57,763 bases of DNA from Jaapia argillacea MUCL 33604 (Eukaryota > Basidiomycota > Agaricomycetes > Jaapiales > Jaapiaceae): assembly GCA_000697665.1 (NCBI GenBank), contig KL197725.1, positions 167,895 through 225,657 on the forward strand, written 5' to 3'. Under the pieces are notes generated by a model. The model had not been told where the DNA came from and did not search any database. It saw only the letters and a list, made by a program, of their open reading frames with translations. A program made the translations under genes and the position numbers. Shown in pieces: positions 36,746 to 56,299 of the stretch (the stretch's first letter is position 1; each line of letters starts with the position of its first letter).

Positions 36746-37176
36746 ACTAGTAGAACGTGAGCCAATAGGTAGGGAGCAAGAAGATGCAAGGACAAGAGCA
36801 GGAAGGGGGCTTGTACTGGTTGTTTGGCAGGGGTTTTAATAACTAAGATGGCCCAGGTGTGAAACATGGATGACAACTTGGAGGAAAATGTTTACTGAAG
36901 TCAATGCAACTAGTCCCAACTCCCATTGAAGAAAAGACACCAATGCCAGTCTCCCCTCCCTCCACCAATCTGGAAAAATGTGAAGAAGTGAGACTGAGTC
37001 AGCTACTGATGCAGTCCTAACAGAGGAATTAACTCACAAGCCAAACAAAACTCTTGTTTTGCCTGGGTGAGATTTCAGTATGAGTAAATCAGATCTCCCA
37101 CAGAAAACTACAGACTCACCGCTAGGACAGACATTTCAAGGTGCATCCATTATATACCACCACCCCAGAACCAGGC

Positions 37177-37307
37177 CATCACTCTCTCAACTCACCGTAG
37201 TGAGAATACATCATCCCAGGCAAGCTAGTCCTGGTGAAGGGAGGAATGCAAGGCTAGTGTGACAACACCAGGTTTGGCTGAGGTGCGTTGTGGAGACACA
37301 GAGATGG
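37177..37307 (-). ncRNA. Structured module, subfamily B, array 38 copy 2
   Basis: Minus-strand copy ending, in its own 5' direction, at CCATCTCTGTGTCT. The 3' hairpin is a perfect CTCAC TACG GTGAG. The CATTCC/GGGATG pairing is kept. Confidence 0.6.
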
Positions 37308-37845
37308 CTGGAATCAAGGTTAAAGGAGAGCGATCCAGTGACAATTCAGAAGATTGTTCTTAGGGTGAACGAATCTCCTTAGAGTTTCACGGAATGTGTT
37401 TCAAACAGCGAAATATCTATTGTTCAAGGGATAGGACAATTCTCTGATCTTCCATTGAAGAGTTCTCAAATATTTTAGACAAATACGAGGGACGACAACA
37501 AACAAAGGGAGGATGACAAAGACTATAAAGCAGTAAAATCCCACTTTCCAGATTTCTGTCAAAGAAATCTGATACTTCACAGAACCTGATGCTGACAGAT
37601 GGACCTCAATGGCTGCAACGATATGCAGGCTTACAAGCTTAAGTTTTTCTGGCACAAAACAGACTTTCAAGTGAAGAGAATCTCTTAGAGAGGGATACTT
37701 TGGGGTGGGAATTCTTGTATTTCTTCTCTCTACTCAGCCTGCCTTATATAGGCTACAAAATGCTGACTAATCTACTGTATGTAAGCATAATAATCCTGAC
37801 AAAGCACCTATTTCTAGCCAATCAGAGTCTCAATTACTCATCCCA

Positions 37846-38048
37846 TTCTCACGCTTCACTTAATCATCCTATCAGAATGGCTGCTGAGTAAGGCAGTTCT
37901 CACGCTTCCAGATTCCAGCCAATCACAGTCCAGGCTGAATAATCCACTTCTCACGCCTCCAGATTTCAACCAATCATGATCCAGGCTGAGTAATCTGCTT
38001 CTCGTGCCCCTCTTTTCTATCCAATCACAGTCAGGCTGAGTCAGCCAC
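37846..38048 (+). repeat. 51-bp tandem repeat x4 with CCAAT boxes
   Basis: Four units (37846-37896, 37897-37947, 37948-37998, 37999-38048), each starting TTCTC(A/G)(C/T)GC. Units 2-4 carry CCAATCA(C/T), which is a CCAAT-factor type site, followed by CAGGCTGA. Confidence 0.85.
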
Positions 38049-38442
38049 TTACTGAACTCATCTGACAAATCATTTGAGTGACTTGTAGGCAGAATGAAGG
38101 GATGTAGCAATGTTTGATTGTCCACAAGAGGAAGAATGAGATAAATGGAACAGAGACAATGATAGCAATGACATTTGATTGCATGACAACTTGGCATAAT
38201 GTTGAAATATAGGATCGACCCAAAGTAGAGGAATTGACGATTTACAAGAATGGAGGGAGGAGAAAGCAAAATGATGGAAAATAACAAAAATACACAACAT
38301 TCAGACCGTGGACCAGTAGGTCGTCTGACACCGGGCCATCTAATTGAAGGTGTCAGCCAATATTGGATCAACCAATGTACTTACTTCTCATCATAAGACA
38401 ACACTCACACCCAACCCCCTCCACTCATGATCAACAATGCCC

Positions 38443-38574
38443 AATCACTCTCTCAACCACTGTGGTGAGAATACATCATCCCAGGCAAGCTAGTCCCGGT
38501 AAGGGAGGAATGCAAGGTTAGTGTTACACCACCAGGTTTGGCTGAGCTGCATCCGATATTGGACACAGAGATGG
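38443..38574 (-). ncRNA. Structured module, subfamily B, array 38 copy 1
   Basis: Minus-strand copy closely matching the module at 52683, including its TCCAATAT.GGATGCAG variant. The 3' hairpin pairs CTCA.CCAC with GTGG.TTGAG. Confidence 0.65.
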
Positions 38575-38644
38575 GAGGACCAGTGGAGAGGAGGTGGGAG
38601 TCAGAAGGAAGGGGAAGATGAGGATGAATGGGGATTCAACGAGG

Positions 38645-38735
38645 TTTATATATGGTTTTGCTAAGTGGTTAACATCTGAAAGTCGCTTGTTGATCGTGGC
38701 TAGCAAGGTTGGATGCAACGTGAATGGATCACGTG
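38645..38735 (-). promoter_or_regulatory. Promoter of module array 38 (subfamily B)
   Basis: Reading the minus strand: CACGTGA (38735-38729), CTTTCAGATGTTA (38682-38670, one base off the common box), TATATAAA (38652-38645), then the first module about 70 bp on. Collinear with 52526-52616. Confidence 0.6.
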
Positions 38736-38821
38736 GCTGGAAACCACTACAGTCATCCACTAGTCCTCTGTACACCGAAATCGATTTCGTGCTCCCATTC
38801 ATGGCCACATCACTCCACTGA

Positions 38822-39875
38822 AATTCTGAAGAGACAGAAAGTTCCCAACATGTATGAAGAATAATCTTACCAACTACACTGAAAAAATACTCAATACTGG
38901 CTGGTGTACAAGCAAAAAGGTGGTGTACAGAGGAGTGGTCCAGCAGATTTGAAAGTCCGCTAAAATGACCCCTTCAATTTCCCAACCACCTCGACATTTG
39001 TGGGGTAACTTCACTTATGAAAATATGTTCCTTAGATGCATATAAAGCATCTCAGAAAATTTTTTAGCAGAACAATTCAAGTAGAGCGTGCTACAAGGGA
39101 GATACAAAAGTGTACAGACAACACATGGTGTATGAAGGACCAGTGGATGACTGTAGCCACCAAGCTGACGCATGGACCATCTGCCAACACTCAACACATT
39201 TCACCCTGCACATCCCAACAGAAAATTGGATTTGCAGTGAGCTGCCCTGTGTATCCTGAGCCATCTGCCGCCGTTGATCCATTCCCAATCCTGAAGATTT
39301 TCCCCACAGCAATTCCCTACTACAGCTTCAATGCTTGTTCTACACCTGTTGTGAGGCCCTGCACGATGTGCTGCCACTGATTCCTCAAATCTTTCACCAA
39401 CATAAACCATGGTTCAATTGCTACCACAATGATGGCCAAGTACATGTGGTTTACTGGAGTCCTTGCCAACCTCGTGCCCTTCCCTGAGCTCATCCTCTTG
39501 GTTCAAAGGTCCACCAGGCAGTCCTTCCACATCAAACCATCATTGATGAACCTTGTGCACGGTTTCGCGGTTTACCAATGGCGAAATTTTTGGATTTGCC
39601 AGTGAGGGATGTAACTGTTTGAAAGAACCACATTAACTATCATTCACATTGGGTTGATGAAGGGCAAGCGTGGCTAAGAGAGATGCGAAGATGCCCTCGA
39701 GCAGTGTGGGGAACCCAATCCGCCTGCTAGCGGAATCGCGCCATTATACTGTTTCGACCGTAACTCCATCGAATCAAGTATACGACATCCCCTCTCTTCA
39801 GATCGAGTTGAACTCACCAGTTTCATACGGTTTCAGACCCAACATCCCATTCCCTCACTCCTGACAACCACACAG
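38822..39875. other. No supported gene up to the gap
   Basis: Only short frames on both strands; I cannot support a gene here. Confidence 0.4.
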
Positions 39876-40544
39876 NNNNNNNNNNNNNNNNNNNNNNNNN
39901 NNNNNNNNNNNNNNNNNNNNNNNNNNNNNNNNNNNNNNNNNNNNNNNNNNNNNNNNNNNNNNNNNNNNNNNNNNNNNNNNNNNNNNNNNNNNNNNNNNNN
40001 NNNNNNNNNNNNNNNNNNNNNNNNNNNNNNNNNNNNNNNNNNNNNNNNNNNNNNNNNNNNNNNNNNNNNNNNNNNNNNNNNNNNNNNNNNNNNNNNNNNN
40101 NNNNNNNNNNNNNNNNNNNNNNNNNNNNNNNNNNNNNNNNNNNNNNNNNNNNNNNNNNNNNNNNNNNNNNNNNNNNNNNNNNNNNNNNNNNNNNNNNNNN
40201 NNNNNNNNNNNNNNNNNNNNNNNNNNNNNNNNNNNNNNNNNNNNNNNNNNNNNNNNNNNNNNNNNNNNNNNNNNNNNNNNNNNNNNNNNNNNNNNNNNNN
40301 NNNNNNNNNNNNNNNNNNNNNNNNNNNNNNNNNNNNNNNNNNNNNNNNNNNNNNNNNNNNNNNNNNNNNNNNNNNNNNNNNNNNNNNNNNNNNNNNNNNN
40401 NNNNNNNNNNNNNNNNNNNNNNNNNNNNNNNNNNNNNNNNNNNNNNNNNNNNNNNNNNNNNNNNNNNNNNNNNNNNNNNNNNNNNNNNNNNNNNNNNNNN
40501 NNNNNNNNNNNNNNNNNNNNNNNNNNNNNNNNNNNNNNNNNNNN
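39876..40544. other. Assembly gap (669 N)
   Basis: Run of N, immediately followed by tandemly repeated sequence, which may be why assembly failed. Confidence 0.99.
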
Positions 40545-40840
40545 CCACGTTGCTCAGTATCGGGATTTCCGATGTTCTACGATTAGGACTGTATTCGACC
40601 CAACGATACGATTCCGATGCACCCGATGCAAACGTTCATAGGAGTCCGGAACATCGGAATTCGACTCAAGACTAGTTGTTCACCATCTCGCCTCCACGTC
40701 ATTCAGTATCGGGAATTCCGACGTTATCAAGTTAGGAACGTATTCGTCCCGACGATACAACTCCGATGCCCCCGATGCGAACGTTCCTAGGACTCCAAGA
40801 CACCCGATTCAACTCAGATCTCCTCCTTCACCACCTTGGA
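40545..40840 (+). repeat. 149-bp tandem repeat, at least two units
   Basis: Unit 1 starts CCACGTTGCTCAGTATCGGG at 40545 and unit 2 starts CCACGTCATTCAGTATCGGG at 40694. Both contain CCGATGC.CCCGATGC and CGTTC.TAGGA. The array abuts the gap and may continue into it. Confidence 0.85.
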
Positions 40841-41315
40841 CTTACAACCTTGCACGTCCCCGGAATCTCAACAATCTTATCAGGAAGTTCTTTATCTCGA
40901 TGATCCGAGTCCCCGATACACTGCCACAACACGTTCCGATGATCCGATACTCTGGGATTTACAAAACACTTACATCACTCTCCACACCATCGCTTATCGA
41001 CTTCTCCACCTCATGTCTGTGCTCTTGCGCTGAGTCCTCGATCAGGAAGATACTCGCTTTAGGTTTCCGAGATTAACTACTATAGATCCTGCTCATTCTG
41101 AGGCTTCTGTGCACTTCCCCTTTCGGTCCGATACACCTCCGATAGGACTTCACTCGCTTCCGAGGAATACTCAGTATGTTTTACCTCAGTTACTTGACTT
41201 CTGACTTGTCCCCCTCTTTCGTTGCGTACTCCTTCACTTTATTCACCCTCATGTTGTCCCGAATTCACCTTTCCCTTTATCCTTTCCTATTCCGTAGCTA
41301 CCTCATGTACTTAGG

Positions 41316-41322
41316 TATAAAA
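41316..41322 (+). promoter_or_regulatory. TATA box in an LTR-like or promoter region
   Basis: TATAAAA within CpG-rich, pyrimidine-rich sequence. Downstream (41340-42090) is a CT-rich leader with one long open frame (41600-42085) that I do not recognise. It may be part of an LTR retrotransposon reaching into the gap. Confidence 0.35.
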
Positions 41323-42089
41323 ACCTGTCTCTAGCTACTTTCCCGAAAACAATCTTTCGTGATCTCTCTCGTCCGGAGTGGCTCTTGGATGTTGTTCACC
41401 CTCGCGCTCTCAATCTAAGCTTGTCCTTGTGTCGCTCTCTAGTGTCCCCTCGGAATCTAACTGTCTCGGGTTTCGGACTTCTTTACCTTCGGGATTTCCG
41501 ATCTTTCTTACTTTCGACTTGTGTTGACGTTTCCTGACCTTCACGTTCTATCTCGACGCTTTCTTTTCGATTCATTCCGATCTTATTTCGTTCCGATTAG
41601 TGTTTTCCTTTCGTTCCTATCCCGACGTATTAGTTTCAGTCCGTTTCGATTTGATTTCTTCGTTTCCCTGTCGTTTTAGTTTGTTTTCGTCACACGTCTT
41701 ACAGTTAGTTTCGTCGTATCGTGTCCTTAGATTTCCGAGTAGTCCGACTCGATTCCCGACGTTCTGGACACCCGCGCAAGTACTCGCCGTAGCGCACCCT
41801 CCCCTCAGGATTACTCCTCCACTATCGCTGTGTCGAGTTGAGTTTCCTTTTGTGTTCCGATTACTGGACACATCAATTCCAGACCTTACAAAGTCTGTCC
41901 TACGCATTCCCGCATCCCGAAACACTGATCCCTCCCATTCTTCAATTTCCATTGAAGACGAACAACTACCTCTCACTCGGACCTCACGCACCCTGAGTAC
42001 CCCACAGCAGATCTGTCTATTCATGGGCCTTGGGATAGCTACATGGTCTGCTTTTTTCCACTCCAATTTTCCTTGCATCCTTTAGTAAT

Positions 42090-42436
42090 ACAAGGTTTAC
42101 AGCCTAAGCTCCCCTCCAGGAGCCTCTGAACCTATCTTGAGAGCATCCATGGCTCTCAATGTCTGTCAATTCTCCTTCTAGCCATCATTCATCACGATGT
42201 CGAACACTACACACCCTATCTGACCGTCGACGATGCTGACAGGATCGTGATAACAGACCCGAATCCTCATGGTCGAAGGAATCAGGAGACGTAACCTACT
42301 ATCAGAGAGTCTGCTTACCCTCAGAGGCCATGTAGAGAGACAAGCACTAGGCAGCTACTATCATGACGACGCACCCCCCCAAATCCCCATGGGTCAGTCA
42401 GTCTGTAAAGTACGTCAAATCAAGTCATCGAAATCA
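42090..42436 (+). repeat. Inverted duplication flank (partner of 51793-52140)
   Basis: Matches the reverse complement of 51793-52140, including GGAGCCTCTGAACC and GACAAGCACTAGG. On the 52-kb copy the frame includes VDDTDGIVNFVFSSKKSQW, so it derives from a coding exon. Confidence 0.75.
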
Positions 42437-42438
42437 TA

Positions 42439-43790
42439 CACCCCCAATTTAGAAAAAGGTTGAAAAAAGGTTTTCGGTCAGACCCTACCAAGACCTTGGG
42501 AAAATGTCCGAATCACTGAAATACAAAAATCAATCAAGCCTTCCCCAACCTTCAAGGTTGGGCAAAGGTTTCTGCTCATACTTGCATGACCTGGCATTCT
42601 GGATGCTCTTCCTCTGCTGTCGGCCCTATGCTCTTAGATATCAATTCCTATTGTATTTTCCAAATCTCGTCTTAATCACACAGAAGGAGGGTGAAACAAC
42701 ATCATTCAAGGGACATCTAATACATACAATTTTCGACTACAATGATCATAATAGAATGAAACAAGTGATACCTGATTACCATGGGTGAAGAGAATCCGAG
42801 AGATGAAAGACCAAGGGGAGTGATGATGGGGATGCGATATCAACAAGCTCAACATGAAATGGTGGTGTGGGAGTCTTGAGATCGGAGGCAGACGGACGAG
42901 AAGGGAGGGGTGCTTGGGCTCTGCAAAGAACGGGAAGTGCCGATTTCTCGCTCGACTCAATCAGGTGTGGTGAAGATGTTGCCGGATGGCACCATGGGAA
43001 CATTCGGGAGCCAAATTCCTTGAGGACATGGGGGGGGGAGGTTTCGGGTCAGGCCATACAAAGTAACACAGACAGAAACTTGAATAGATCTCTTCAGCCA
43101 GGAACCTCGGAAGAATCTCCTGGGAGAGAACGATAGCCTCTTGAATTATCACAGCCAGTGTTTGTCACCTTCCAGTTCAGACCTCGGGAGGGTTGAATTT
43201 CGAATGTCCTCGGACCAGGCAATACTGTCTTGTCCGTGAGGGCCAGAGGTAAATTCAAGGAGTGGGGGCTTGTGGTCCATTCTTCTGAGGTTATGCAGAA
43301 CAGGGAAACCACAACAGCAGGACGATGACGACGTTGAACGTTGGGGAGCGACGGCAAATTTTCAACATCGGGCGACGCGATTATTTGGCGTTCCAACTCC
43401 GACGGCAAACTCCGTTGCTCACCAAAACGCCTGAGATCGTGAAGTCCGTGCCTCTGCTTGGGCAGACAGTTTCGAGCACCTCTTATTGCCTTCAAATGAT
43501 GCAAGGGGGAAGGAATAAGACTAGATAAACTTCAGGACAAACCCCTTTCCAGAAATAATGGGCCGTAGTAGTAGACATTTAGATACCACCTCATGCATCC
43601 CCTCAAGCCGACTGCCAACCTTGGGCAGACCTTGAGCTAATCCTCCCTCGGCCTCTACCTTGCGGGAAATTCATCTTTTCGGCAAAAGATTTCCGTGACC
43701 TCACCCAAGGCTTTCAGGAACGTAACCTCCTAATATTGCCGTGACATTCCCGCTTCGGGGCCGCGGAAGTCCCAGGCCTGGTTGGGGGTG
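42439..43790. mobile_element. 1352-bp non-autonomous DNA element with TA target duplication
   Basis: Starts CACCCCCAA and ends TTGGGGGTG (9-bp terminal inverted repeats), flanked by TA on both sides (42437-42438, 43791-43792). The uninterrupted site survives in the inverted paralogue near 51783, where the flanks join around a single TA. TA duplication suggests a Tc1/mariner/pogo-like integration, though the ends are too short to assign a family. No transposase was recognised inside. Confidence 0.75.
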
Positions 43791-44250
43791 TATTGTCTCG
43801 GTATTGTCTCGAATCACGGAGCTGGTATGGAGAGGGTGATCTAACTACAATCAGACTGAGCCCGAGGAGTCGGACGTTGGACTAGCTTAACGAGTTGCAT
43901 AGGGTACATCATGTATGAACCAAGAGAGCGAAACAGTACCGAATTCAATAGTGGGACAAGTATCGCAACCAGCAACGCGAGTATCCCACAAAACATATCG
44001 TCACAATCTCATGGACCCCAATGATCAAGTACAAATCCTCCAACCTAACAAAGGTGACAATGACACGAGCAAAAGACATCGACATGAAAAGGCACAACAA
44101 CTACGATCCACAAATGACACCGAACCCGAACCTTCCCTCCCCCTAACCTGCAACCGCGTAAAGGAATGAGACTCCATAAGAAAATTTATTCTCACCTTCA
44201 TTTCGATGACGTACCCGTCCGACCACCCCTCCACGACCTCAGAAGCAACT

Positions 44251-44387
44251 CATCAATTTCTCAACCTGCCAAGTACGCCGGACCACATCGTTCCCTACAA
44301 ACGAGGCCCCGAGGGGTAGAATGTAGGGTCAGTGAATCACTTGACACCATGAGGGTAGTTGAGCTGCGCCGGGAGACACAGAAATGG
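44251..44387 (-). ncRNA. Structured module, subfamily A, array 44 copy 3
   Basis: Minus-strand copy. Stem GGCGC/GTGTC replaces GACGC/GCGTC while still pairing through G.U. The CCCTAC/GTAGGG stem and CCCCTCGGGG inner hairpin are intact. Confidence 0.65.
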
Positions 44388-44534
44388 GTGCGGTCCGAGA
44401 TCTCTCTGGTCCTGAGAAGGGAGCGAGGAGATTTTGTGAGTCTCCATAAGATGACCGACTCGAAATACAATCATCTGCTCACCTTCATATCAACGATGTG
44501 GACGCCCAGCCACCCCTCCCAATCTCGTCCAACC

Positions 44535-44672
44535 CATCACTTTCTCAACCTTCCATGTACGCCGGACCACATCTTTCCCTAAAAACGAGGCCCCGAGGGG
44601 TAGAGTGTAAGGTCAGTGAATCGCTTGACGCCATGAAGGTAGTCGAGCTGCGTCGTGGAGACACAGAGATGG
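44535..44672 (-). ncRNA. Structured module, subfamily A, array 44 copy 2
   Basis: Minus-strand copy. GACGC/GCGTC is kept; the outer stem is CCTTAC opposite TTAGGG, with one mismatch. Confidence 0.65.
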
Positions 44673-44818
44673 GTGCGATTCGAGGTTGGGTTGGTCATGG
44701 GAGAATCTGGATAAATGTGAGTCTCTGCCAGACAGCTGACATGAAACGAAATTGTGAGCTTACCTTCATATTAACCATATGTCTATCCGACAACCACTCA
44801 ACAACCTCGGATCCAACA

Positions 44819-44954
44819 CATCAGTTTCTCAACCTGCCAAGTACGCCGGATCACATCGTTCCCTACAAACGAGGCCCCGGAGGGTAGAGTGTAGGGTCAG
44901 TGAATCGCTTGACGCCCTGAGGGTAGTCGAGCTGCATCTGCGACGCAGAGATGG
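44819..44954 (-). ncRNA. Structured module, subfamily A, array 44 copy 1
   Basis: Minus-strand copy, first after the promoter. Stem GATGC/GCGTC pairs by G.U; the inner hairpin is CCCTCCGGGG. Confidence 0.65.
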
Positions 44955-45017
44955 AGGGATGTCGTGGTGAGAGAGCAGAGGAAGGGAGTGAAGAAACCAA
45001 CAGCGATTTGGCAAAGT

Positions 45018-45065
45018 CTTTATACCTGAGTAGTTAGCATGTGAAAGAGCAATAACATGTGAAAG
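45018..45065 (-). promoter_or_regulatory. Promoter of module array 44
   Basis: On the minus strand: CTTTCACATGTTA (45065-45053), CTTTCACATGCTA (45047-45035) and TATAAAG (45024-45018), about 65 bp before the first module. A coding gene starts on the opposite strand within a few hundred bp. Confidence 0.65.
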
Positions 45066-45149
45066 AGGAAGAGACGAACTTTACTTCTCGAGGATGTTGG
45101 TTCAAATCAACGACTTGGCTGACGCGACGCGTCTGGGTCACGGGATACT

Positions 45150-46553
45150 CTAAACCTTCAAGTTATTCCCCCTGCTCGTCCGAGTCCTTCCCAACCATCG
45201 CCGACATTTCATTGTTGTTTCATTGCCTACCTCAGAGCTTGACTGTCATTACTGCCTTGGCAGTTTTGATGTATCGGCTGCGTGGTCTCTTTGTAGAGTC
45301 TCCAGAGTTTGATCTGTGCAATCTTCAATCTCTCTGGATCCGTTTTCAATTGAAAAATAGCACCAAGTTGGCTGTGGGCTTGATGAAAGCTTGCCGCGAC
45401 TGTCTTTCGCTTTCAAGGTTGAATGGAGCTCAAGACGCGGTGGCAGGGATGAAAGTGTATGCGCGTTTCTGGGTCTGGTTCTATTTCAGGTACGGCTGAG
45501 GTCAGAGTTCAGTGTTCGTGGGCCATCATGTTGCTCTTCCAACCGATCCCTCAAGAATAGGTATGCACCCCATACTGCTTTTTCATCTTTAATCTAACCC
45601 GTTGGATTGTCAGCAATTGCATTGGCTTGGGCCAAACTTGCCTTGCGGCGGTGGGCTGGTCCTGCACATCGTCGCTGATCCCCGAAGTTTATCGTTTATC
45701 CCTGAGCCCTGGCGGGGCCTCGCGATTGCCTATTTTGATGTGAGCACGTTCATCGATATCCCTCAACGATCCTTTTTCAATCTCTGTTGACTCTCGAGTC
45801 GGGAACTGGCCGCCCGGCCTCCCGTTTGGGAGTTCAGGTCTCCGAATGCTTCCAATTTTGTTGAGACAGCTGGTCGAGATCCGACACCTCGAAGAACGGA
45901 TAAGCAATGGGATAGCATGTTGACCTCACAATGGGGTCATATGTTGCCTATGGTCTATCTCGGCGATGGCGCCGAAGCTTCGATACATTGCTGTAGTGTT
46001 ATCTGCTCACACCTTGACTGAAACTAACCCAAGATTCGAGTCTAGGGTCATCCACCCCTCGTCCAGTTGACGGCGAGGCTCCCACCTCAAATTCTTTGTC
46101 GAAATGTGTAGACGTTACCAACGCTTCCGTATGTCGCTATTCTGGCATCACTGACCCACTTATATCCTTATATCCCTTCAAAGTTCAACTCGAGGTTCTC
46201 GGAAGCACCAACGAAGGAACTCTGCTCCACTGCGTCCGGACGGGAAGCTTCAAACCCTGGCCTCCCCACTTCGTCTCCATCCGCATCGTCCTCCACTCAT
46301 TGATCAACTTATGCTGTTGTACCCGGTCCTTTCGCTGGGCCTTATTTCAGCGGCTCTACTGGCCGTACCCTTTACATTCGGGAGATTGTCGCTTCGGCTA
46401 AGAATAATCGTCATCTCGGAAGATCCAAAGATGGTTAATTGTGAAGTGGGAATGTACTCGTTGGCTTCACTGACGTCTGACGCTGACGACAACCGTTTAG
46501 ACCGAAAGGGTTCTCGCCGTCGGGTGTATTCAGCTAATTTTCAAGATGGTTGA
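45150..46553 (+). pseudogene. Unidentified gene, decayed paralogue of the gene at 54-55 kb
   Basis: Contains ESFPTIADISLLFHCLPQSL with a hydrophobic stretch after it, then NLQSLWIRFQLKNSTKLAVG and KACRDCLSLSRLNGAQDAV. Later exons read ARSSISLNDPFSISVDSRVG and LRQLVEIRHLEER. Compared with the paralogue it has TGA at 45741-45743 where that copy has TGG, TGA at 45921-45923 where that copy has CGA, and a local insertion near 45690-45725. The family is not recognised. It starts divergently from module array 44, as its paralogue does from array 55. Confidence 0.55.
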
Positions 46554-47295
46554 GCAGGATTGTTCCAAGTGTGCCGTCCTTCTCACCATGTATCTCCTTT
46601 AATGCTTTGTCTCCGTGGCCACAGCTTCGAGCTTTGAGCCAAGCTGAACACACATAATGTTGCTAGCGACTTCAATAGTATCAAGGTGTTTTACGCTTCC
46701 ATTCCGTGCTCCCAAGTCGACTGAATGTATCCTCGAGCAGTAATAGACTTACCGTCCGCTTCCATGCTCTCGGAAACAACACCCCGCCCACACGCAATCT
46801 CTTCCTCGTTCCGCGTTGATCTTGATGTATATATGTTGCCTGCGACCACTTTGCATTTGCGGTGACACCAACACTTGCCCTTCATTTAATCACGATCGTC
46901 GCGACTCAACTTCGGGATGGGTGTCTGTTTGATATAGGCATGTATACGACAGTGAAATCGGACTGCGGTAAGACGAGATTTGTGTATCTCCCACCGTATA
47001 CAACAAGTTGGAAAAAGTAGACGTGTCAAACGAGTTGTGCTCCATCAAAATCGGGTTCGGTGAAGTGGCTGGGCGATGGACTCGTGGAGATGCCAATGAA
47101 GTCTTCACGGCAGTATTCTAATGATACAACGACCGACCGAGTAATACAATGTCAAGTGGATAATACAAATCAAAGAATATGAGATCCATTGAGACCAGTA
47201 GGCAATCCAGAGACGAGAAAAAATGATAGGAATAGAATCATCCGTCCTAGCACAGATTATACTCTCCGCAATGCATCTAGGGCACACCATATGCG

Positions 47296-49045
47296 TTACA
47301 ACGGAAGCAACAGTGTTGTCGGTTCATGATGACCGGGAAGTTCGTTGATCTTGCGGACCATGGCGTCTCGAAGCTGTCGGTTAAACCCTTCGCACCGTAG
47401 CGCAACGACTTTGATGGTCTGAGTGAGAAGCGATTCAGCTCTGAGGTATCCGATATCAGCAGTTCACGAGATACAGACCTTTCTTCCTTCGTTAAAGTCT
47501 TTGATGACTTCGTTGATTACGTCCTTCGGGGGCAGGTCGGTGAAGTCGTTATCCTCGGAATTCCCACCGTGACGGAACATCTTGGAAATCGGCTGGAAAA
47601 ACTGGGCCGCGAGAACTATTTTCGTCTAAAGAGTTGCATAATCGTCGTCAGCATCCGTACAATCTCCCCAACGAATCCATGCTCACCTCATAAGTAAGCA
47701 TCTTCGCTTCGGAGGGGGAGAGGGTGTGAACAGTTCGGCCAGTAAAGTCGCCAATATAGCCTACCGCCTTCCGCTTTCCTCCTCCAGCGACGAGCAAGGG
47801 CCTGCGAATGGAGGTGCAGAGTTCCTCCCCAACGGACGACAGGATAAGACCACTACTTCCCGGTTTCGAGAAGCCAGTGATGCAGAAAGCTCGCTGAAGG
47901 TAGACGAGTGTCGAGATCAAAGTCTCCTGCAATTCGGGGATCACATCTGATGCGGAACGCGAAACACGCGTAATAAGCCGCATCTCCTGGATCCCGTACG
48001 CGCGACGGATGAACCGCTCCCATACTGAGAAAGTCCGACAATCTCCATCTCCTCCTTCGCCGAAGGTGAAGTCCTCGAGACCGGTCATATGCTCCATCGT
48101 AGCCCTGAATAACTGGTTCTGGGAGCTCAGTCAGCATGTGTGAAAGTCTCTGGGAGGAGAATTCCGGTCTTACCTGATTGAATTGTCCTTTGCCTATTAC
48201 CTTCGAGAACACAATGGGTGCTGGGTTCATTGGGCCCACAGCGTACTTCTTAACCTCTTTGTCATCCTTTGAAGAGACGTTGCCATCATCGAGCGCTGAG
48301 TGGGGGCGCTTGTTGTGTTTAGGGATTTGATAGCACCTATCGCCGGGGCTGGCATTCCGCGTGACCGAGATGATGAAAGGAGTGCTAAGCGTTGATCGAC
48401 GGCGACGAGTGGAGGGCGATGGGGAGGGGGCTGAAATAGATGGGCCGGGAGCCGAAGACTCTCCCTCAGGATTCGAAGTCCTCTCCTGATGATCCGGAGA
48501 GTCTTGAGTTAAGCTCTAAATCAACGTTAGCATATATGCGAGTCAAGGGCGTCAGGGTACCAACGCACGGAGGTGTCGGTAGTATCAGCACCTTCCTGTT
48601 GGGGAGGAGCAACGTTCGATATAGAAGCATTCCTATAAACTAAAAGAGAGGTGTAAGGCCGAAACTCCTGAGACCGTGGACTTGAGTCCTACACCGGTGT
48701 CAGACCATCAGTTGAGGTGTAAGCAGATAAGACTGGTGCGACTTACCGAAGCTTTTGCACTATCCACCGGTGGAGTCACCAGTATGTTCGAGTTTGAACC
48801 CTCTCCAGCGATTGAGGGAGGGGTCACGATTTGAGGCCCTGCCGATGTTCCATCCAAGTGCTGAGAGATTGTCAGCATATATGCGACTCAACGAGTTCCA
48901 GGTAACGTACCAGAGTTATCTTAGTGTCCACCTCTTCCGAGGGTGCGTCCGAGCCGCTGCAGGGCACGACCTCGGATTCAAGACACTCGGAGATCGCACC
49001 GACACCAGCAAGTGTAGCGAGGTCGACGGCATCTGTACAAGACAT
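47296..49045 (-). CDS. Unidentified multi-exon protein, apparently intact
   Basis: Reads on the minus strand from ATG 49045 (MSCTDAVDLATLAGVGAISE) to TAA 47298-47296. Early exons are Ser/Pro-rich and disordered, with RRRR near 48410 as a likely nuclear signal. The next part is VKKYAVGPMNPAPIVFSKVI then GKGQFNQ. After an intron (about 48121-48176) come NQLFRATMEHMTGLEDFTFG, VWERFIRRAYGIQEMRLITR and VYLQRAFCITGFSKPG. Further exons have AAQFFQPISKMFRHGG and VVALRCEGFNRQLRDAMV. No premature stop was met and CGA codons are retained, in contrast to the genes of the left half. I do not recognise the fold or role. Confidence 0.65.
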
Positions 49046-49596
49046 GATAAGAGAAGGTGGGGATAGTGCGAATGGGGTGAGGACGTCGTGGGGGCGAAAG
49101 GGAAAGATTTGTTGGGCTGAAACCAGAACACGTCGCGATGAATTTATAGCCTTTTCCGCTGACATCCCCGATAGCCTTGTTAGGCAGTTGCATCTCCTTT
49201 TCAGGACGCTACCAGTGTCGTGCTGATTCTGGATGGCGTGTATAAGTGCTCTTCGAACTTCATCTCGACGTCATCCTTGCAGACGTGGCTGGGTACGCAT
49301 TGAAGAACAGTCCATTTCGCCAGTAGTTCTGCCAGGGTCCAACCAGCCGTGCGAACGGCGAGACAAGAAAGTAGGACTTGCTATCGCCCATCCTCTCCAT
49401 AGGAGACCGACTAGGGAGCTACTGCTAAGACCTTCGATGAGAAACTTCTTCTCCGGTCGCTGAGGTGTCGCATCTCGGCCAGCAGTTCAAACAAGAGGAA
49501 GAATTCGGCGACTCGGGGGCCAAGGGTAGGCTATGTTCAAAAGGCCACCGGTAATCAATCATCCAATCTACAGGGCGGTTGGATATACGGGAATCG
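49046..49596. other. No supported gene
   Basis: Short frames only on both strands. It may include 5' leader of the minus-strand gene or 3' sequence of the next one. Confidence 0.35.
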
Positions 49597-50303
49597 TTAG
49601 AGAGCCCTCAAGGTAGTTGAATACAACACGGTAGGAGGTGTTCGAGCTGTGAGTGGATTTCGCATCCAAGACGATGCAGGTAGACCTAAGACGATAGCCA
49701 GCAGACAGCTTTCGCACGTGTGAGAGTGTGGAGGTGCAGGGGCAGGTTGCTTCGATTCCAGAATGTGACAATTGCAACATCTTGCTCCGGATCCCTCAGG
49801 TCTGGTTAACTGGTTTTCAGCTCCAAAATTCAACAGGGAAACATATCGCTTGGAGGATAGGAACAACAGTCGCGAGATTCGGCCAGGAATGAGGCATTCG
49901 GGTTCGACGTGTCCGACGACACACAGAGCGACACCTTTGCTGAAAGGGGTGTTCAGCTTGAGCCAGTGTAACACCTAGTAATCCAACGAATCAGTAGGAG
50001 GTAGGTCGTAAGTCGGGATATAGGATACACACCAGTCGGCTCATAACTCGGTCGAAAGAACACCTTGAGCGTCCATGAATCCCTTCGCTCCAATCCCTGT
50101 AACGCTGAAATAGAACCAGGCCCGAGAATCCACGTATATCCTTCCAGCCCTACCGTCCCATGTCTGGCTCTTTCCTCCCTCAGAAATGTCAGACGATTGC
50201 TTAGCCGTTGCCCAAGTGAGCAACATCGACTCGACCCACGGTCATTAAGCCTGCTTGACACCGAAGACTTGAAGTACGGACATCGGACAAAGCAGCCAGA
50301 CAC
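49597..50303 (-). CDS. Unidentified gene divergent from module array 50
   Basis: Minus-strand exons include the stretch around 50041-50226 (TWDGRAGRIYVDSRAWFYFS, IGAKGFMDAQGVLSTEL). After an intron near 49975-50040 follow HWLKLNTPFSKGVALCVVG and HVEPECLIPGRISRLLFLSS. Upstream frames to about 50303 are less certain. No domain is recognised. Its 5' end faces the promoter of array 50, with the CACGTGA box about 130 bp away. Confidence 0.45.
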
Positions 50304-50428
50304 TACTGAAGATTCCTCAGCTCAAACTCAAGGTAGTGAATGACGGTGAAGCTTCTAGTCAGAAATCGGTATCGAAAGCTGTTGGCGAGCGTTGGCGAGA
50401 AAGACAGAACAGTGAGAAATGGTTGCAG

Positions 50429-50554
50429 CACGTGACCTGACGCGTCGCGTCAGCCAGGTCGTTGATTTGAACCAACATCCTCAAGAAATAAAGTTCGTCT
50501 CTTCCTCTTTCACATGTTATTGCCCTTTCACATGTTAACCCCTCAGCTATAAAG
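50429..50554 (+). promoter_or_regulatory. Promoter of module array 50
   Basis: CACGTGA (50429-50435), a CGCGTCGCGTCAGCCA block, two copies of CTTTCACATGTTA (50507-50519, 50525-50537) and TATAAAG (50548-50554). The first module begins 64 bp after the TATA box, so transcription probably starts near 50580. Confidence 0.7.
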
Positions 50555-50617
50555 TCCTTGCCAAATCGCTGTTGATTTCTTCACTCCCTTCCTCCGCTCA
50601 TTTGCCTCGGCTTCCCT

Positions 50618-50754
50618 CCATCTCTGTGTCTCTCCGACGCAGCTTGACTACCCTCAGGGCGTCAAGCGATTCACTGACCCTACACTCCACCCCTCGGGGC
50701 CTCGTTTGTAGGGAAAGATGTGGTCCGGCGTACTTGGCAGGTGAGAAACTGATG
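50618..50754 (+). ncRNA. Structured module, subfamily A, array 50 copy 1
   Basis: Stems: GACGC 50636-50640 with GCGTC 50659-50663; CCCTAC 50678-50683 with GTAGGG 50708-50713; inner CCCC 50690-50693 with GGGG 50696-50699 (outer three pairs closing a CTCG loop). Confidence 0.65.
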
Positions 50755-50901
50755 TGTTGGATCCGAGGTTGTTTGAGTGGTTGTCGGATGGACGTATGGT
50801 TGATACCAAGGTAAGCCCACAATTATATTTCTCGTCAGGCATCTCGCAGATACTCACATTTGTCCAGATGCTCCCATGACCAACCCAACCTCGATTCGCA
50901 C

Positions 50902-51039
50902 CCATCTCTGTGTCTCCCCGACGCAGCTCAACTACACTCATGGTGTTAAGCGATTCACTGACCTTACACTCTACCCCTCGGGGCCTCGTTTGTAGGGAAA
51001 GATGTGGTCCGGCGTACATGGAAGGTTGAGAAAGTGATG
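50902..51039 (+). ncRNA. Structured module, subfamily A, array 50 copy 2
   Basis: GACGC faces GTGTT (paired with G.U) and CCTTAC faces GTAGGG (paired with one G.U), so both stems survive base changes. Confidence 0.65.
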
Positions 51040-51186
51040 GGTTGGACGAGATTGGAAGCGGTAGCTGGGTGTTCACATCGTTGATATGAAGGTGAGAAGA
51101 TGATTATATTTCGAGTTGGTCATCTTATGGAGAGTCACACAATCTCCTCGCTCCCTTCTCATGACCAGAGAGACCTCGGACCGCAC

Positions 51187-51323
51187 CCATCTCTGTGTCT
51201 CCCGATGCAGCTCAACTACCCTCATGGCGTCAAGCGATTCACTGACCCTACATTCTACCCCTCAGGGCCTCGTTTGTAGGGAACGATGTGGTCCGGCGAA
51301 CTTGGCAGGTTGAGAAATTGATG
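51187..51323 (+). ncRNA. Structured module, subfamily A, array 50 copy 3
   Basis: GATGC faces GCGTC (G.U pair). The inner hairpin loop reads CTCA. It has one base fewer than other copies after TCTGTGTCT, which shifts any reading frame. Confidence 0.65.
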
Positions 51324-51792
51324 AGTTGCTTCTGAGGTCGTGGAGGGGTGGTCGGACGGGTACATTGTCGAAATGAAGGTGAGAATAGATTTTCTTATGG
51401 AGTCATTCCTTCACACAATTTCAGGTTGGGAGGGAATGTTTGGGTTCAGTGTTCGTTGTGGTTCATCGTCATTGTTCTTGCTTGTGTTGAGGTCTTTCGC
51501 TCGTGTCGTCGTCAACTTTGTTGTGTTGGAGGATTTGTGCTTCGACCATCGGGGTCCATGAGATTGTGACGATGTGTTTTGTTCGATACCCGCGTTGCTA
51601 GTTGCGATACTGTCCCACTGTTGAATTCACTATTTTGCTCTCTTGCTTCATGCATGATGTACTTACTCTGTGGAACTCGTTAAGCTTGTCCTACGTCCCA
51701 CTCCTCGAGCTCAGGTTGATTGTAGTTAGATCACCCTCTCCGCACCAGCTCCGTGATTCGACACAAAATACCGAGACAATATGATTTCGACG

Positions 51793-52140
51793 GCCTGATT
51801 TGACGTACTTTACAGACCGACTGACCCGTGGGGATTTGGGGGAGTGCGTCGTCCTGATAGTAGCCACCTAGTGCTTGTCTCCCTACATGGTCTCCGAGGG
51901 TGAGCGGACTCTTCGATAGTAAGTAACGCTTACAGTCTGCCACTGAGACTTCTTAGAGCTGAACACAAAATTCACGATCCCGTCGGTGTCATCGACCGCC
52001 AGATAAGGTGTGCATGGCTCGACATAACGAAGAATGATGACTAGAAGGAGAAGGGACGGGCGTTGGGTGCCACGGACGCTCTCGAGAACGGTTCAGAGGC
52101 TCCTGGAGGGAAGCTCAGGCTGTATGTATCGTTTTTAGGA
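51793..52140 (-). repeat. Inverted duplication flank (partner of 42090-42436)
   Basis: Continues the array-50 duplication outward without the TA element, giving the empty integration site near 51783. Sequence 51425-51792 likewise matches 43791-44170 in inverted orientation. Confidence 0.75.
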
Positions 52141-52525
52141 AAGGCGGAAAGAAAATGTGAGTGGACAAAAGTGTAACATATCCTGAGGCCCAAGAATAGA
52201 TACATCCGCTCGAGGGCACTTTCGCTCCTCTCTTAGCCCCGCCCGCTCCCCTCATCAACCCGCTCTCCTCGATCTCGACGGTAATCAATCAATATTGTGG
52301 ATGGTCTCGAAGGATCACGCATGCGTTGCATGCTGGCAAATCCATGTCTTTCGCCGTTCATATTGGAATGGTGATGTTCGGCCAGCCAGCATGGGTGGTC
52401 AAGGGGGCTCGAAAATGGGGTAAGTACAGTCCTATATTCTGGTAGAATGACAAGAAAATGCTCAGAGCAGCACCATCGCGGCCGCCATGGTTCGTGCGTA
52501 GAGTGACCTCCAAGCGATTTCCAGC

Positions 52526-52616
52526 CACGTGATCCATTCACGTTGCATCCAACCTTGCGAGCCACAATCAACAAGCAACTTTCACATGTTAACCACTGAG
52601 CAAAACCCTATATAAA
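52526..52616 (+). promoter_or_regulatory. Promoter of module array 52 (subfamily B)
   Basis: CACGTGA (52526-52532), CTTTCACATGTTA (52579-52591), TATATAAA (52609-52616). The first module starts 67 bp after the TATA box. Confidence 0.65.
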
Positions 52617-52682
52617 CCTCGTTGAATCGCCATTCATCCTCATCTGCCCCTTCCTTCCTACTCTCACCTCCCCGCTGGTCCC

Positions 52683-52815
52683 CCATCTCTGTGTCCAATA
52701 TTGGATGCAGCTCAGCCAAACCTGGTGTTGTCACGCTAACCTTGCATTCCTCCCTTCACCGGGACTCGCTTGCCTGGGATGATGTATTCTCGCCACGGTG
52801 GGTTGAGAGACTGAT
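52683..52815 (+). ncRNA. Structured module, subfamily B, array 52 copy 1
   Basis: CATTCC pairs with GGGATG (one G.U), inner CCC/GGG, and 3' hairpin CTCGCC/GGTGGG. Followed about 95 bp later by a GTA(A/G)G-type donor. Confidence 0.6.
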
Positions 52816-52988
52816 TGGGCGTTGATCATGAGTGGACTCAGTGGAGGGGGTTGGGTGGCTATGGGCTAGGTTGACGAAGTGCGAGTGCTGTGTTATGAGG
52901 ATGGGTAAGAGAGTTGTTTGATTCAAGGTTGGCTGACACCTTCTGTTAGATGATCCGGCCTCAAGCTCTCCTTCAATTTGATTCCAGC

Positions 52989-53117
52989 CATCTCTGTGTC
53001 TCCACGACGCACCTCAGCCAAACCTGGTGCTGTTACGCGACCTTGCATTCCTCCCTTTACTGGGACTCGTTTGCCTGGAATGATGTATTCTCACCAAGGT
53101 GGGTTGAGGGTCTGATG
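52989..53117 (+). ncRNA. Structured module, subfamily B, array 52 copy 2
   Basis: Directly follows an acceptor-like TTCCAG. CATTCC/GGAATG and CTCACC/GGTGGG stems are intact. An open frame crosses it, but the frame is not shared by the other B copies. Confidence 0.6.
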
Positions 53118-53940
53118 GTTGAATGATTGTTTGAGGAGGGGCTCAGTTGCGAAGTACGAGTGGCTGACCAGTAAGCAAGTTATCCAATCCCCACATTGGT
53201 TTGTTGGTAAGGTGGTGGCATGGGCACGCATTTGGGTTTGTCGAGGTCGGCCTTGGTGGTGAGTCTTCGCGTCTTTCGGAGAAGATTTGAGTTACTCATA
53301 CCATATCCGGCCGGGCACAACGCGAGTTTTGTTCGGCTGGTGCGTTGATCTCTCTTCTAGCATCACACAGTGAGCTAACTCGATTATATATTTTAGCAGT
53401 TGTTCAGGTTAGGGGGGGAGGGGGGCGGGGCGGGGCGGGATCCATTCCCTATAGTAGTAGTTGTCCTTTCTCACATCGATGTAGTCCACCCATGTCGTTG
53501 TCATCCTTTCGGAGCGGGGGCACGCACACGATGTTACTCACGTCAGGTCGAAATATCTGTCGCAGCCCCGATTTCTTTCTGTTGATGGGTGGCAAGGCAC
53601 AGACTTGGTCTTCCTACAGTCCAATATCACAACCGAACGGACAACCATCCCATGTTTGAAAGTTCGCGACAATTGTGATTAGATTACGGGCAGGTGTCGG
53701 CGTCGCCGCAGGAGGTTTGAGTGGGGTGACATCTCCGCGGCAACGCAAGCGGACAGCAAGTCTGTTATTGCTCGAGGAAAAAATTAGTCGACTTGAGAGC
53801 GCGGAATGGAAACGTAAGATCTCTTGGGGTTATTGTAGTCCCCGGAGATATCGTGTATATTCAGCTTTGCAGTAAAGCGGGAAGCTGTAACCACGGAGAC
53901 AAAGTATCAAAGGAGATACATGGTGAGAAGGATGGGACAC
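53118..53940. other. 3' part of array 52 and spacer
   Basis: The stretch 53231-53430 matches 56141-56330 (TTTTGTTCGGCTGGT, then an acceptor followed by GTTRGGGGGG). No gene is supported up to the minus-strand gene downstream. Confidence 0.4.
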
Positions 53941-53949
53941 TTGAAGCAA

Positions 53950-55173
53950 TCCCGTCCGACCATCTTTCAAATTAGCTGAATATACCCAACGGTGAGAGCC
54001 CTTTCGATCTAAACGGTTGCCGCCAACGACAGGCATCAGTAAGGCCAGCAAATACATACCCATCTCACAATCAACCGTCTTTGGATCTTCAGATGACGAT
54101 TATTCTCAGCCGAAGCGACAATCTCCCAAAAACGTGTATGGCACGGCCAGTAGAGCTGCTGAGATACGGTCCAGCGAAAGGACTGGAAACAGGTTAACTT
54201 GATCAATGAGTGCCCATGAGGATGGAGCCGAAAAAGACGGGCCAGGGTTCGAAGCACCCCCATCTGAGTCCAGTGGCGCAGAAGTCCTTCGTTGGCGATT
54301 CCGAGAACCTCGAGTTGGACTTTGAATAGATGGATGTAAGGATATATGTGGGTCAAAGATGCCAGAATAACGACGTACGGAAGTGTTGGTAGCGTCTACA
54401 TACTTCGACAAAGAATTTGAGGCAGGAGCCTCGCCGTCAACTAGACGACTGGAGGATGACCGTAGACTCGAGTCTTGGGTTAGTTTCACCCCATTGTGGG
54501 GTCGACATGCTATCCCTCTGCTTCTCCGTTCTTCGAGGTGTCGGATTTCCACCAGCTGTCTCAACAACTTTGGAAGCATTCGGAGACCTGAGCTCCAAGC
54601 GGGAGGCGGGGGTGGCCAGCTGCCGACTCGAGAGTCAACAGAGACTGGAAAAGGATCGTTGAGGGATATCGAAGAACGTGCCCACATTACAATAGGATCA
54701 GCGACGGTGTGCAATGTTTGGGCCAAGCTAATGCGAGTGCTGACAGTCTCAGTCCAACGGGTCAGATCCAAGATGAAAAAGCAGTATGGGGTGCATAACT
54801 ATTCTCGAGGGTCGGCTGGAAGAGAAACTTGATTGCCTTCGAACAACGAACTCTAACCTGTACCAGAAACAAGACGAGACCAAGGTATTGTGCACCTCCA
54901 TCCCTACTGCCGAGTCTTGAGCTTCATCCAGCATAGAAAACGAGAGTCACAAGAATAGCCTCGACAAGCTATCATCAAGTCCAGCAGCCAGCTTGGCAAT
55001 GTGTCAGGCTTTGTGTTCAATTGGAAGCGGACAGATATGAAAGATCGACCTCGGGGGGCTCTCGTGAGACCACTCGGCCGATGCATATAAATTTTCAAAG
55101 CAGTATGTATGGCAGTTGCGATCAAGTTCCCAGTCGGAAGTAAGTCTTGAATATGTTGAGCCACCGTTGGCAA
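53950..55173 (-). CDS. Unidentified multi-exon gene, intact paralogue of 45150-46553
   Basis: Minus strand from MPTVAQHIQDLLPTGNLIAT (55173), with a hydrophobic helix directly after. Introns follow, then RISLAQTLHTVADPIVMWAR and SSISLNDPFPVSVDSRVGSW. Next come a Pro-rich turn, LRMLPKLLRQLVEIRHLEER, RRSRGIACRPHNGVKLTQDS and a Ser-rich C-part (about 54110-54450) with SRNRQRRTS and GPSFSAPSS. The frame ends at 54106-54108 or continues through a small intron to near 53950. The paralogue at 45 kb shows the same order in inverted orientation. The function is unknown; the helix and Ser-rich tail do not identify a family. The 5' end faces array 55. Confidence 0.55.
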
Positions 55174-55217
55174 TCCGGGTGGGGAAGGAGGAAGGAACGG
55201 GGATAAGGTTTGTGCAT

Positions 55218-55342
55218 CACGTGACCTAGTCGCGTCGCGTCAGCCAAGTCGTTGATTTGAACCAACGCCCTCCAGTTACAGTTCGTCCCTTCCACTTTCA
55301 CATGTTACTCCTCTTTCACATGCTAACTCCTCAGCTATAAAG
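55218..55342 (+). promoter_or_regulatory. Promoter of module array 55
   Basis: CACGTGA (55218-55224), CGCGTCGCGTCAGCCA block, CTTTCACATGTTA (55295-55307), CTTTCACATGCTA (55313-55325), TATAAAG (55336-55342). Confidence 0.7.
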
Positions 55343-55405
55343 ACCTTGCCAAATCGCTGTTGGTTTCTTCACTCCCTTCCTCCGCTCATTCACCTCGATT
55401 TCCCT

Positions 55406-55543
55406 CCATCTCTGTGTCTCTCCGACGCAGCTCGACTACCCTCAGGGCGTCAAGCGATTCACTGACCCTACACTCCACCCCTCGGGGCCTCGTTTGTAGG
55501 GAACGATGTGGTCCGGCGCACTTGGCAGGTTGAGAAACTGATG
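55406..55543 (+). ncRNA. Structured module, subfamily A, array 55 copy 1
   Basis: All A-type stems intact (GACGC/GCGTC, CCCTAC/GTAGGG, CCCCTCGGGG). Confidence 0.65.
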
Positions 55544-55680
55544 AGTTGGATCCGAGGTTGTTGAGTAGTTGTTGGATGGACGTATGGTTGATACAAAGGT
55601 AAGCCCACATTCACTTCAGCGATCTTGCGGGGACTCACGTTTGTCCAGATGCTCCCATCAACCCCAGCCTCGATTGGCAC

Positions 55681-55818
55681 CCATCTCTGTGTCTCTCCGA
55701 CGCAGCTCAACTACCCCCAGGGCGTCAAGCGATTCACTGACCTTACACTCTACCCCCCGGGGCCTCGTTTGTAGGGAACGATGTGGTCCGGCGTACTTGG
55801 CAGGTTGAGAAATTGATG
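55681..55818 (+). ncRNA. Structured module, subfamily A, array 55 copy 2
   Basis: Outer stem CCTTAC/GTAGGG (one G.U), inner CCCCCCGGGG. A 41-codon ORF starts exactly at the exon start (ATG 55649) and ends TAG 55772-55774. Confidence 0.65.
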
Positions 55819-55951
55819 AGCTACTTCCGAGGTCGTGGAGGTGGTCGGACATGTACACTGTGGATATGAAGGTGAGATTGTGTTTTCTTACGGATTTTCA
55901 TCCATTCTCCCCAGATTACTTCCCTATCGCCTATCACACCTCAATCTGCTC

Positions 55952-56085
55952 CCATCTCTGTGTCTCGTCGACGCATCTCAGCCAAACCTGGTATTGGAAC
56001 TGCTAACCTGGCATTCCTCCCCGTGAGGGGACTAGTTTGCCGGGAATGATGTGGCCCAACACCATGGTGGGTTGAGAGAATGATG
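55952..56085 (+). ncRNA. Structured module, subfamily B, array 55 copy 3
   Basis: Outer stem CCTGGC 56007-56012 with GCCGGG 56039-56044; inner TCCCC 56018-56022, GTGA loop (GNRA type), GGGGA 56027-56031. Two adjacent pairs differ from subfamily A on both strands. Confidence 0.7.
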
Positions 56086-56299
56086 GGTCCGGTCGGAGGT
56101 GTTGGTGTCTCTTGGATACACCCTGGAGCATCCGTTTTGACGGTGAGTCTTTGCATGCTTCGGAGGAGATTCGATATACTCATACCCATATCTTCGTCGG
56201 GCAAAACGCGAGTTTTGTTCGGCTGGTGAGTTGATTCCCTTGCAGGACTGGATAGATGGCTGACTCGATCTCATCTCTTCACGCCGGTGCAGGTTGGGG

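Follow-up and report, generated by a model that had tools for sequence, protein, structure and literature searches.

A 57,763-nucleotide (nt) stretch of the genome of the basidiomycete Jaapia argillacea MUCL 33604 (contig KL197725.1, positions 167,895 to 225,657, forward strand; hereafter the window, numbered from its first letter) carries arrays of ~137-nt modules that an earlier note, made from the letters alone, had proposed as a candidate new structured RNA. Our analysis supports this proposal: the modules covary in a larger alignment, match no Rfam family, and probably define a new family of multi-module structured RNA genes. It is almost certain that the modules represent a conserved RNA fold, and the decisive evidence for this fold is in the rest of the genome rather than in the window. 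Beyond the earlier note, the analysis adds a gene structure, clusters elsewhere in the genome, a 3′ element and a link to DUF6697 genes.

A shared fold in clusters of divergent sequence

By our own count the family comprises 18 arrays in eight clusters, with sequences that are very different between clusters. Five arrays (G1 to G5) are in the window, one is in C23, and there are two each in C55 (one of them a lone module), C36, C17:252/267k, C17:276/284k, C11 and C16. The C17:284k array is known from a DNA match alone, and the C16:836k array lies mostly in an N gap. DNA searches with single modules did not reach beyond the window and C55, a query with the 3′ portion of G5 led to C36, C17:252k and C17:267k, and chained searches led to C11, C16 and C17:276k, and then to C23 and C17:284k. 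Because DNA searches score best candidates only, these array counts are lower bounds.

The shared fold is a three-way junction consisting of a closing stem (P1), a hairpin (P2) and a long arm (P3), with a linker of 5-6 nt from P3 to P1. P1 is CCAUC/GAUGG in the window, CUGUC/GACAG in C16, CUUUC/GAGAG in C11, and CUGUC/GACGG, UUGUC/GACAA or CUGCC/GGCAG in C17. P2 occurs as CUGUGUC/GACGCAG, CCGUGUC/GACGCGG, CCGAGUC/GACUCGG and CUGCAUC/GAUGCAG. Scoring of P1, P2 and P3a over 27 modules of six groups gave 491 paired cells out of 513 for cognate strands, compared with a mean of 417.7 and a maximum of 470.9 in 265 arrangements with the 3′ strands swapped between groups. An initial pairing test, in which the linker could vary over 0-12 nt, was judged too permissive (cognate mean 24.3 for 33 modules, non-cognate 21.6, shuffled 19.2; 9 of 33 modules above the 99% line). 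With the linker fixed at 5, a length picked after the free-linker result was known, the score was 23.4 versus 14.5 in shuffles, and 19 of 32 modules were above the 99% line.

We built a covariance model from the 13 window modules only (R2), and a sequence-only model of the same alignment without base pairs (R3). In 175,676 bases from 15 sources, R2 gave 40 matches at E≤5, 33 of them at E≤0.01. These were the 13 training modules, one relic module and 26 more outside the window (six in C55, including the lone module; four each in C16, C17:252k and C17:267k; three each in C11 and C23; two in C17:276k), each on the strand of its array; there were no R2 matches in L038 or L063-L066. R3 gave 26 matches, comprising the 13 modules, the relic, seven in C55, a partial match in C17:276k and four partial matches in C16. 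Its full-length or nearly full-length matches were confined to the window and C55, and it gave none in C11, C23 or C17:252/267k.

In the R2 alignment at E≤0.1 (A5, 39 rows), double changes were present in 22 of 30 pairs, compared with 11.9 in shuffles, none of 500 of which was as high, and with 8-13 pairs in slid controls. Base pairing was seen in 90.7% of 963 cells, with 115 double-change cells (38.4 in shuffles) and a covariation score of 0.336 (0.179 in shuffles). G-U pairs were common, the fourth pair of P2 being U-G in 29 of 38 rows. The covariation that the earlier note had read from the window copies is borne out in the larger alignment, where compensatory changes exceed chance, as in a conserved structured RNA. 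Unbiased 6-mers common to different module groups were no more numerous than in shuffles.

The C23 array provided a separate check, as it was reached through the 3′ element and used in no model. Upstream of its four tandem modules are TATAAG and CATGTGA, and a 3′ element is also present. In each of the four modules, P1 and P3a form near the expected sites with a linker of 6, and 0-3 of 500 shuffles were as good, in a test that allowed linkers of 5-7 and in which P3a was set to 5 nt after reading the sequence. Between modules 2 and 4, P3a shows a compensatory change (CGGGG/CCCCG versus CGGGA/UCCCG).

The C17:252/267k and C17:276/284k arrays are inverted pairs, and the P2 loop is GAAAC at C17:252811 (L060) and GTTTC at C17:266498 (L061), in near-identical arrays, as if the tip had been inverted. 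The C55 array and lone module (L062, C55:98-107.9k) adjoin two related interferon-inducible-GTPase-like (IRG) genes. IRG-GTPase hits, with no more than 59% identity in the 120 of 410 that were listed, point to an Agaricomycete.

Modules and arrays in the window

Allowing up to three mismatches, CCATCTCTGTGTCT occurs at 25 places in the window (8.78 expected), and 13 of these head full modules. The shared module head described in the earlier note is confirmed, being exact in nine of the 13 and slightly changed in four (three with one mismatch and one, at 44954 on the minus strand, with two). The earlier note had counted eleven copies and a relic; the family stands, with the count now 13 (eight of type A and five of type B) plus one relic. 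This relic, at 36638-36787 on the minus strand in G1 (R2 48.2 bits, E 9.8e-11), is just beyond the span of the earlier note, and may or may not be the same one.

All 13 modules are R2 matches. On the minus strand, where each module starts at its higher coordinate, G1 has type B modules at 38437-38574 and 37172-37307, and G2 has type A modules at 44816-44954, 44533-44672 and 44249-44387. On the plus strand, G3 has type A modules at 50618-50757, 50902-51042 and 51187-51326, G4 has type B modules at 52683-52822 and 52988-53122, and G5 has type A modules at 55406-55546 and 55681-55821 followed by a type B module at 55952-56088, which is the best folder of all copies (z -4.82).

Covariation within the window alone was modest. 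In the window alignment A1, 89.4% of cells were paired, compared with 32.6-41.8% in slid controls, and double-sided change was seen in 3 of 32 pairs, a level reached by 28 of 500 shuffles; further pair types were no higher than in shuffles. The compensatory changes described in the earlier note are present, among them two neighbouring double changes between types A and B. The first (columns 69/98) is clear, with A-U in eight copies and G-C in five. The second (columns 68/99) is weak because only one copy carries it: the pair is U-A in eight copies, G-C only in the copy at 55952 and unpaired in the other four of the five B copies, as that note had partly acknowledged. RNAalifold scores compared with column shuffles gave z -2.2 for A (3/200), -5.2 for B (0/200) and -3.2 for A and B together (2/200). 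The antisense strand folded worse, at +0.35 for A (118/200) and -2.6 for B (2/200). Folded singly, the eight A copies had z from -0.13 to -1.93, and the five B copies from -0.38 to -4.82.

Two further features of the window are a 51-bp unit in tandem (3.3 copies) at 37883-38050, and an open frame at 13980-14978 which we take to be retroelement gag-like with a CCHC zinc knuckle.

Predicted promoters and introns

Each of the five window arrays has a TATA box 71-78 nt upstream of its first module (that of G1 was read by eye), and E-box-like sites are part of every window array promoter. CACGTGA is upstream of four of the five, G2 having no exact copy; CTTTCACATG is replaced in G1 by CTTTCAGATG, and GCGTCGCGTC is present in G2, G3 and G5. 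On the minus strand, the G1 promoter (38645-38735) contains TATATAAA at ~38645-38652 (by eye), CTTTCAGATGTTA at 38670-38682 and CACGTGA at 38729-38735, and the G2 promoter (45018-45130) contains TATAAAG, two copies of CTTTCACATG and GCGTCGCGTC. On the plus strand, the promoters of G3 (50429-50554) and G5 (55218-55342) each contain CACGTGA, GCGTCGCGTC, two copies of CTTTCACATG and TATAAAG, and that of G4 (52526-52618) contains CACGTGA, CTTTCACATG and TATATAAA.

The pattern CTTTCACATGN{10,40}TATAWA has eight matches in the 43.7 Mb genome, and the reversed-pattern control has one. Seven of the eight are at five family arrays. The eighth, in C12, was considered as a possible array and rejected, as it is located at what looks by eye like a beta-oxidation-type protein gene and no modules were seen there. 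Upstream of all seven outside arrays C11, C36 (both), C16, C17:276k, C23 and C55 are CATGTGA and a TATA-like box, the latter 57-174 nt ahead of the first listed module. The C17:252k and C17:267k arrays have CATATG or CACATG, and TATAAG ~275 nt upstream (by eye).

Ten predicted GT..AG introns of 43-77 nt were read out between the window modules. On the minus strand these are at 38340-38384 (45 nt) in G1, and at 44148-44195 (48 nt), 44412-44482 (71 nt) and 44707-44763 (57 nt, with a branch-like ACTCAC) in G2. On the plus strand they are at 50811-50867 (57 nt), 51092-51168 (77 nt) and 51379-51424 (46 nt) in G3, at 52905-52949 (45 nt) in G4, and at 55599-55648 (50 nt) and 55872-55914 (43 nt) in G5. 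In C16, C11 and C36, pyrimidine-rich linkers take the place of introns between successive modules (by eye). TATA boxes and introns are all in one orientation, and by sequence this combination of a TATA promoter and canonical introns on one strand is that of a spliced long non-coding RNA made by RNA polymerase II (Pol II). We infer from these signals that the arrays are transcribed and spliced, and they very likely specify a spliced long RNA.

The 3′ element

Many of the arrays also have an intron-like 3′ element with a conserved hairpin. In the window it is present in G1 (36993-37122, minus strand; E 3.5e-27), G4 (53256-53384, plus strand; E 2.2e-28) and G5 (56140-56269, plus strand; E 6.4e-29), where the E-values are from R1, a model of the element built from seven copies that include these three. 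A search of 154,172 bases with R1 found 12 places, five of them new to the model; two extra weak rows were the same hairpins read on the opposite strand. R1 matched at C23 with E 1.7e-18. Cells of the element were paired in 94.5% of cases versus 94.4% in shuffles (14 rows, including the two weak minus-strand rows). The hairpin is well kept, although covariation does not show this, since pair counts match those of shuffles.

In the window elements, the hairpin is flanked by two copies of GGUGAGU, either of which can pair with an intervening branch-like ACUCAU; this pairing could act as a splicing switch. We considered a 3′ splice site within the hairpin loop to be unlikely, as the C11 loop is without AG. 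Long G runs directly follow the element at ~53410-53440 and 56290-56320 (plus strand) and at 36950-36969 (minus strand).

A kink-turn-like core loop

In most module groups, arm P3 contains an internal loop whose strands are CUGA-like and RUGAUG-like and adjoin a C-rich stem. With six C55 modules set aside, this kink-turn-like pattern was found in 24 of the 37 modules, from six of the eight groups, compared with a mean of 0.56 in shuffles and none in reverse complements. The loop agrees with the kink-turn definition in the available part of PMC5061560, which gives L7Ae, Snu13 and 15.5K among kink-turn binders. A hammerhead-like reading of GAAACTGATGAG was also considered and rejected, as its CTGATG is not kept in other copies.

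Comparison with known RNA families

No Rfam 15 match at gathering score was found in the window or in five related loci. A search at an E-value threshold of window positions 50400-56500 gave two weak matches that fall short of the gathering score and lie outside the modules, and at E≤0.5 there was none in 43,304 bases of the five related loci. These searches thereby also gave no match to H/ACA snoRNAs, which have two hairpins, an H box and an ACA box. Open-licence literature on structured or long non-coding RNAs of Agaricomycetes, basidiomycetes or mushrooms contained no such family among the matches listed. As far as its available text goes, the one fungal covariation screen found (PMC8216456; Gao, Jones and Rivas 2021) reports 17 conserved structural RNAs of fungi from genomes that are all of Ascomycota, with Basidiomycota considered but unscreened. 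Its candidates share with our modules that they are fungal structured RNAs supported by covariation. However, they are H/ACA RNAs and intergenic and mRNA-linked structures, and the terms 'tandem' and 'three-way junction' are absent from the main text in its available form.

Association with DUF6697 genes

The DUF6697 family (PF20411) gave 32 rows at E≤10, some under the curated cut-off, which merged into 23 loci genome-wide. Four of these (C11, C36, C17:256.9k and C23), all above the cut-off, are within the array clusters or no more than 1 kb away, compared with 0.045 expected (Poisson P 1.7e-7, with the cluster limits and 1 kb margin chosen after seeing the data). The DUF6697 genes of C11, C36 and C17:256.9k are each flanked by two arrays. 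In the window, a weaker relative is located between G2 and G3 (gene at ~47.3-49.1 kb, limits by eye); its DUF6697-like open frame at 47648-48130 on the minus strand scores 17.4 bits in Pfam (cut-off 23.9) and is matched from the C11 frame by phmmer at E 4.9e-6. A DUF6697-like frame at C17:279k scores 14.1 bits, and no DUF6697 was found near C16 or C55. Pieces C79, C35 and C17:256.5-261.5k have DUF6697 matches and no 3′ element. A joined DUF6697 exon pair as query gave no homologues at E≤0.001, and no paper on DUF6697 was found in the open-licence literature.

An inverted segmental duplication, recognised by protein-level matches between 45300-46900 and 53600-54900, lies near the window DUF6697-like gene.

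Discussion

Our best reading, which we consider rather probable as a whole, is that the modules are exons of new spliced, probably Pol II, multi-module non-coding RNAs with repeated protein-binding sites. A typical gene would have a TATA promoter with CACGTGA, CTTTCACATG or CATGTGA elements, followed by two to ~7 structured modules of ~90-165 nt each, separated by short introns or by pyrimidine-rich linkers; many genes would also have the conserved intron-like 3′ element with its hairpin. Given the fold and a spliced RNA, we lean towards the modules working as repeated protein sites. The junction and kink-turn would be bound by an L7Ae/Snu13-type protein or by the neighbouring DUF6697 protein, and one transcript would gather several copies of the protein, acting as a scaffold or decoy. 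Both the partner protein and this role are conjecture, with the DUF6697 protein as a tentative candidate for the partner.

Repeated units within one RNA, offering several protein sites, would resemble CsrB/RsmZ, roX, the Xist A repeat and S. pombe meiRNA, which are multi-module scaffold or decoy RNAs with known partners; no kinship in sequence or fold with the modules is expected.

Several observations weigh against this reading. The support from A5 is strong and yet not independent, because the alignment was fitted to the tested structure and its rows are related. In the P1/P2/P3a test, strands were hand-placed on the basis of earlier pairing tests, the linker being 5 or 6, and the test omitted 16 of the 43 listed modules (six from C55, seven from C36 and three from C276), most of which have no clear site. 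R2 found none of the seven listed C36 modules, which join the family through the 3′ element, the promoter and, in three of the seven, the core-loop pattern. That pattern is absent from groups C16 (0/4) and C250S (0/3), and because it was written after inspection it represents conservation and does not prove a kink-turn. Taken singly, A copies do not fold clearly better than shuffles, and pair counts of the 3′ element did not exceed shuffles (score 0.232 versus 0.236). The C17:252k and C17:267k arrays are duplicates of each other with 95% identity, and no promoter-like sites (TATA-like or CATGTGA) precede the lone C55 module. Regarding the protein partner, four of the eight clusters have no DUF6697 gene above the cut-off, and 19 of the 23 DUF6697 loci are outside the clusters.

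The alternative that survives best, though we consider it improbable, is that the arrays are polycistronic precursors from which modules are cut out to act singly as small structured RNAs, like clustered small nucleolar RNA (snoRNA) genes. The modules fold autonomously and are set apart by introns or pyrimidine-rich linkers, and the CUGA-like and RUGAUG-like strands by a C-rich stem are common to the modules and to box C/D and C′/D′ kink-turn RNAs (C/D snoRNA, the U4 5′ stem-loop), recalling in particular the C′/D′ motif of snoRNAs. However, a box C/D snoRNA carries box C (RUGAUGA) and box D (CUGA) at its termini, adjoining the closing stem, whereas the modules have a single motif inside an arm, no conserved C or D boxes seen beside P1 (by eye), and no match to an Rfam snoRNA. 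The arrangement in the window is also the reverse of that of intronic snoRNAs. In non-coding snoRNA host genes such as GAS5 and UHG, a spliced transcript, as predicted here, accompanies small structured RNAs, but those RNAs are intronic, while the window modules are in predicted exons and the intervening introns look ordinary.

We consider it quite unlikely that the modules serve as hairpin precursors for small interfering or micro-like RNAs, with arms diverging along with their targets. The long P3 arm, the fast change between clusters and the tandem copies would fit such precursors. However, it is the three-way junction, the P2 stem and an internal loop that are best kept, rather than a long perfect duplex, and the arms have many loops.

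The earlier note had itself named DNA palindromes with no transcript as an alternative to a structured RNA. A selfish or mobile repeat, with palindromes that matter as DNA (cruciform, recombination or inverted duplication) and have no RNA role, would account for the inverted duplicates in several clusters and for the P2 loop inverted between two near-identical copies. We consider this very improbable because G-U pairs, which a DNA stem would not favour, are frequent, the antisense strand folds worse, and promoter and splice signals consistently share an orientation; copy number is also low.

Finally, the idea that the arrays are protein-coding or decayed genes with the fold as a by-product can be set aside with near certainty, and a conserved small protein was rejected, as no codon phase is apparent in the variable columns (13,9,7 in A; 15,13,13 in B), copies differ among themselves by 1-nt indels, stops occur in all three sense frames of 10 of the 13 window modules, and the longest ATG open frame of predicted spliced G3 is 46 amino acids versus an average of 69 in shuffles. 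On the antisense strand, open frames of 145-154 amino acids, mutually 50-74% identical, overlap the A arrays (44118-44582, 44450-44884 and 50657-51103) and are the one feature in favour of coding; they are probably due to chance.

A further and doubtful suggestion is that the arrays and adjoining DUF6697 genes form one fast-evolving Agaricomycete RNA-protein system, in which tandem three-way-junction/kink-turn sites are read by a DUF6697 or L7Ae-type protein and drift has given every cluster a matching version of its own, as would be expected in self/non-self or selfish-element conflict. The 18 arrays counted here make a sizeable family, equipped with promoter, introns and 3′ element and linked to a family of proteins. 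An almost complete turnover of sequence has left its fold in place, which would make the RNA family a test case for RNA shape outliving sequence, and it would offer a first handle on DUF6697, a protein family without an assigned function.

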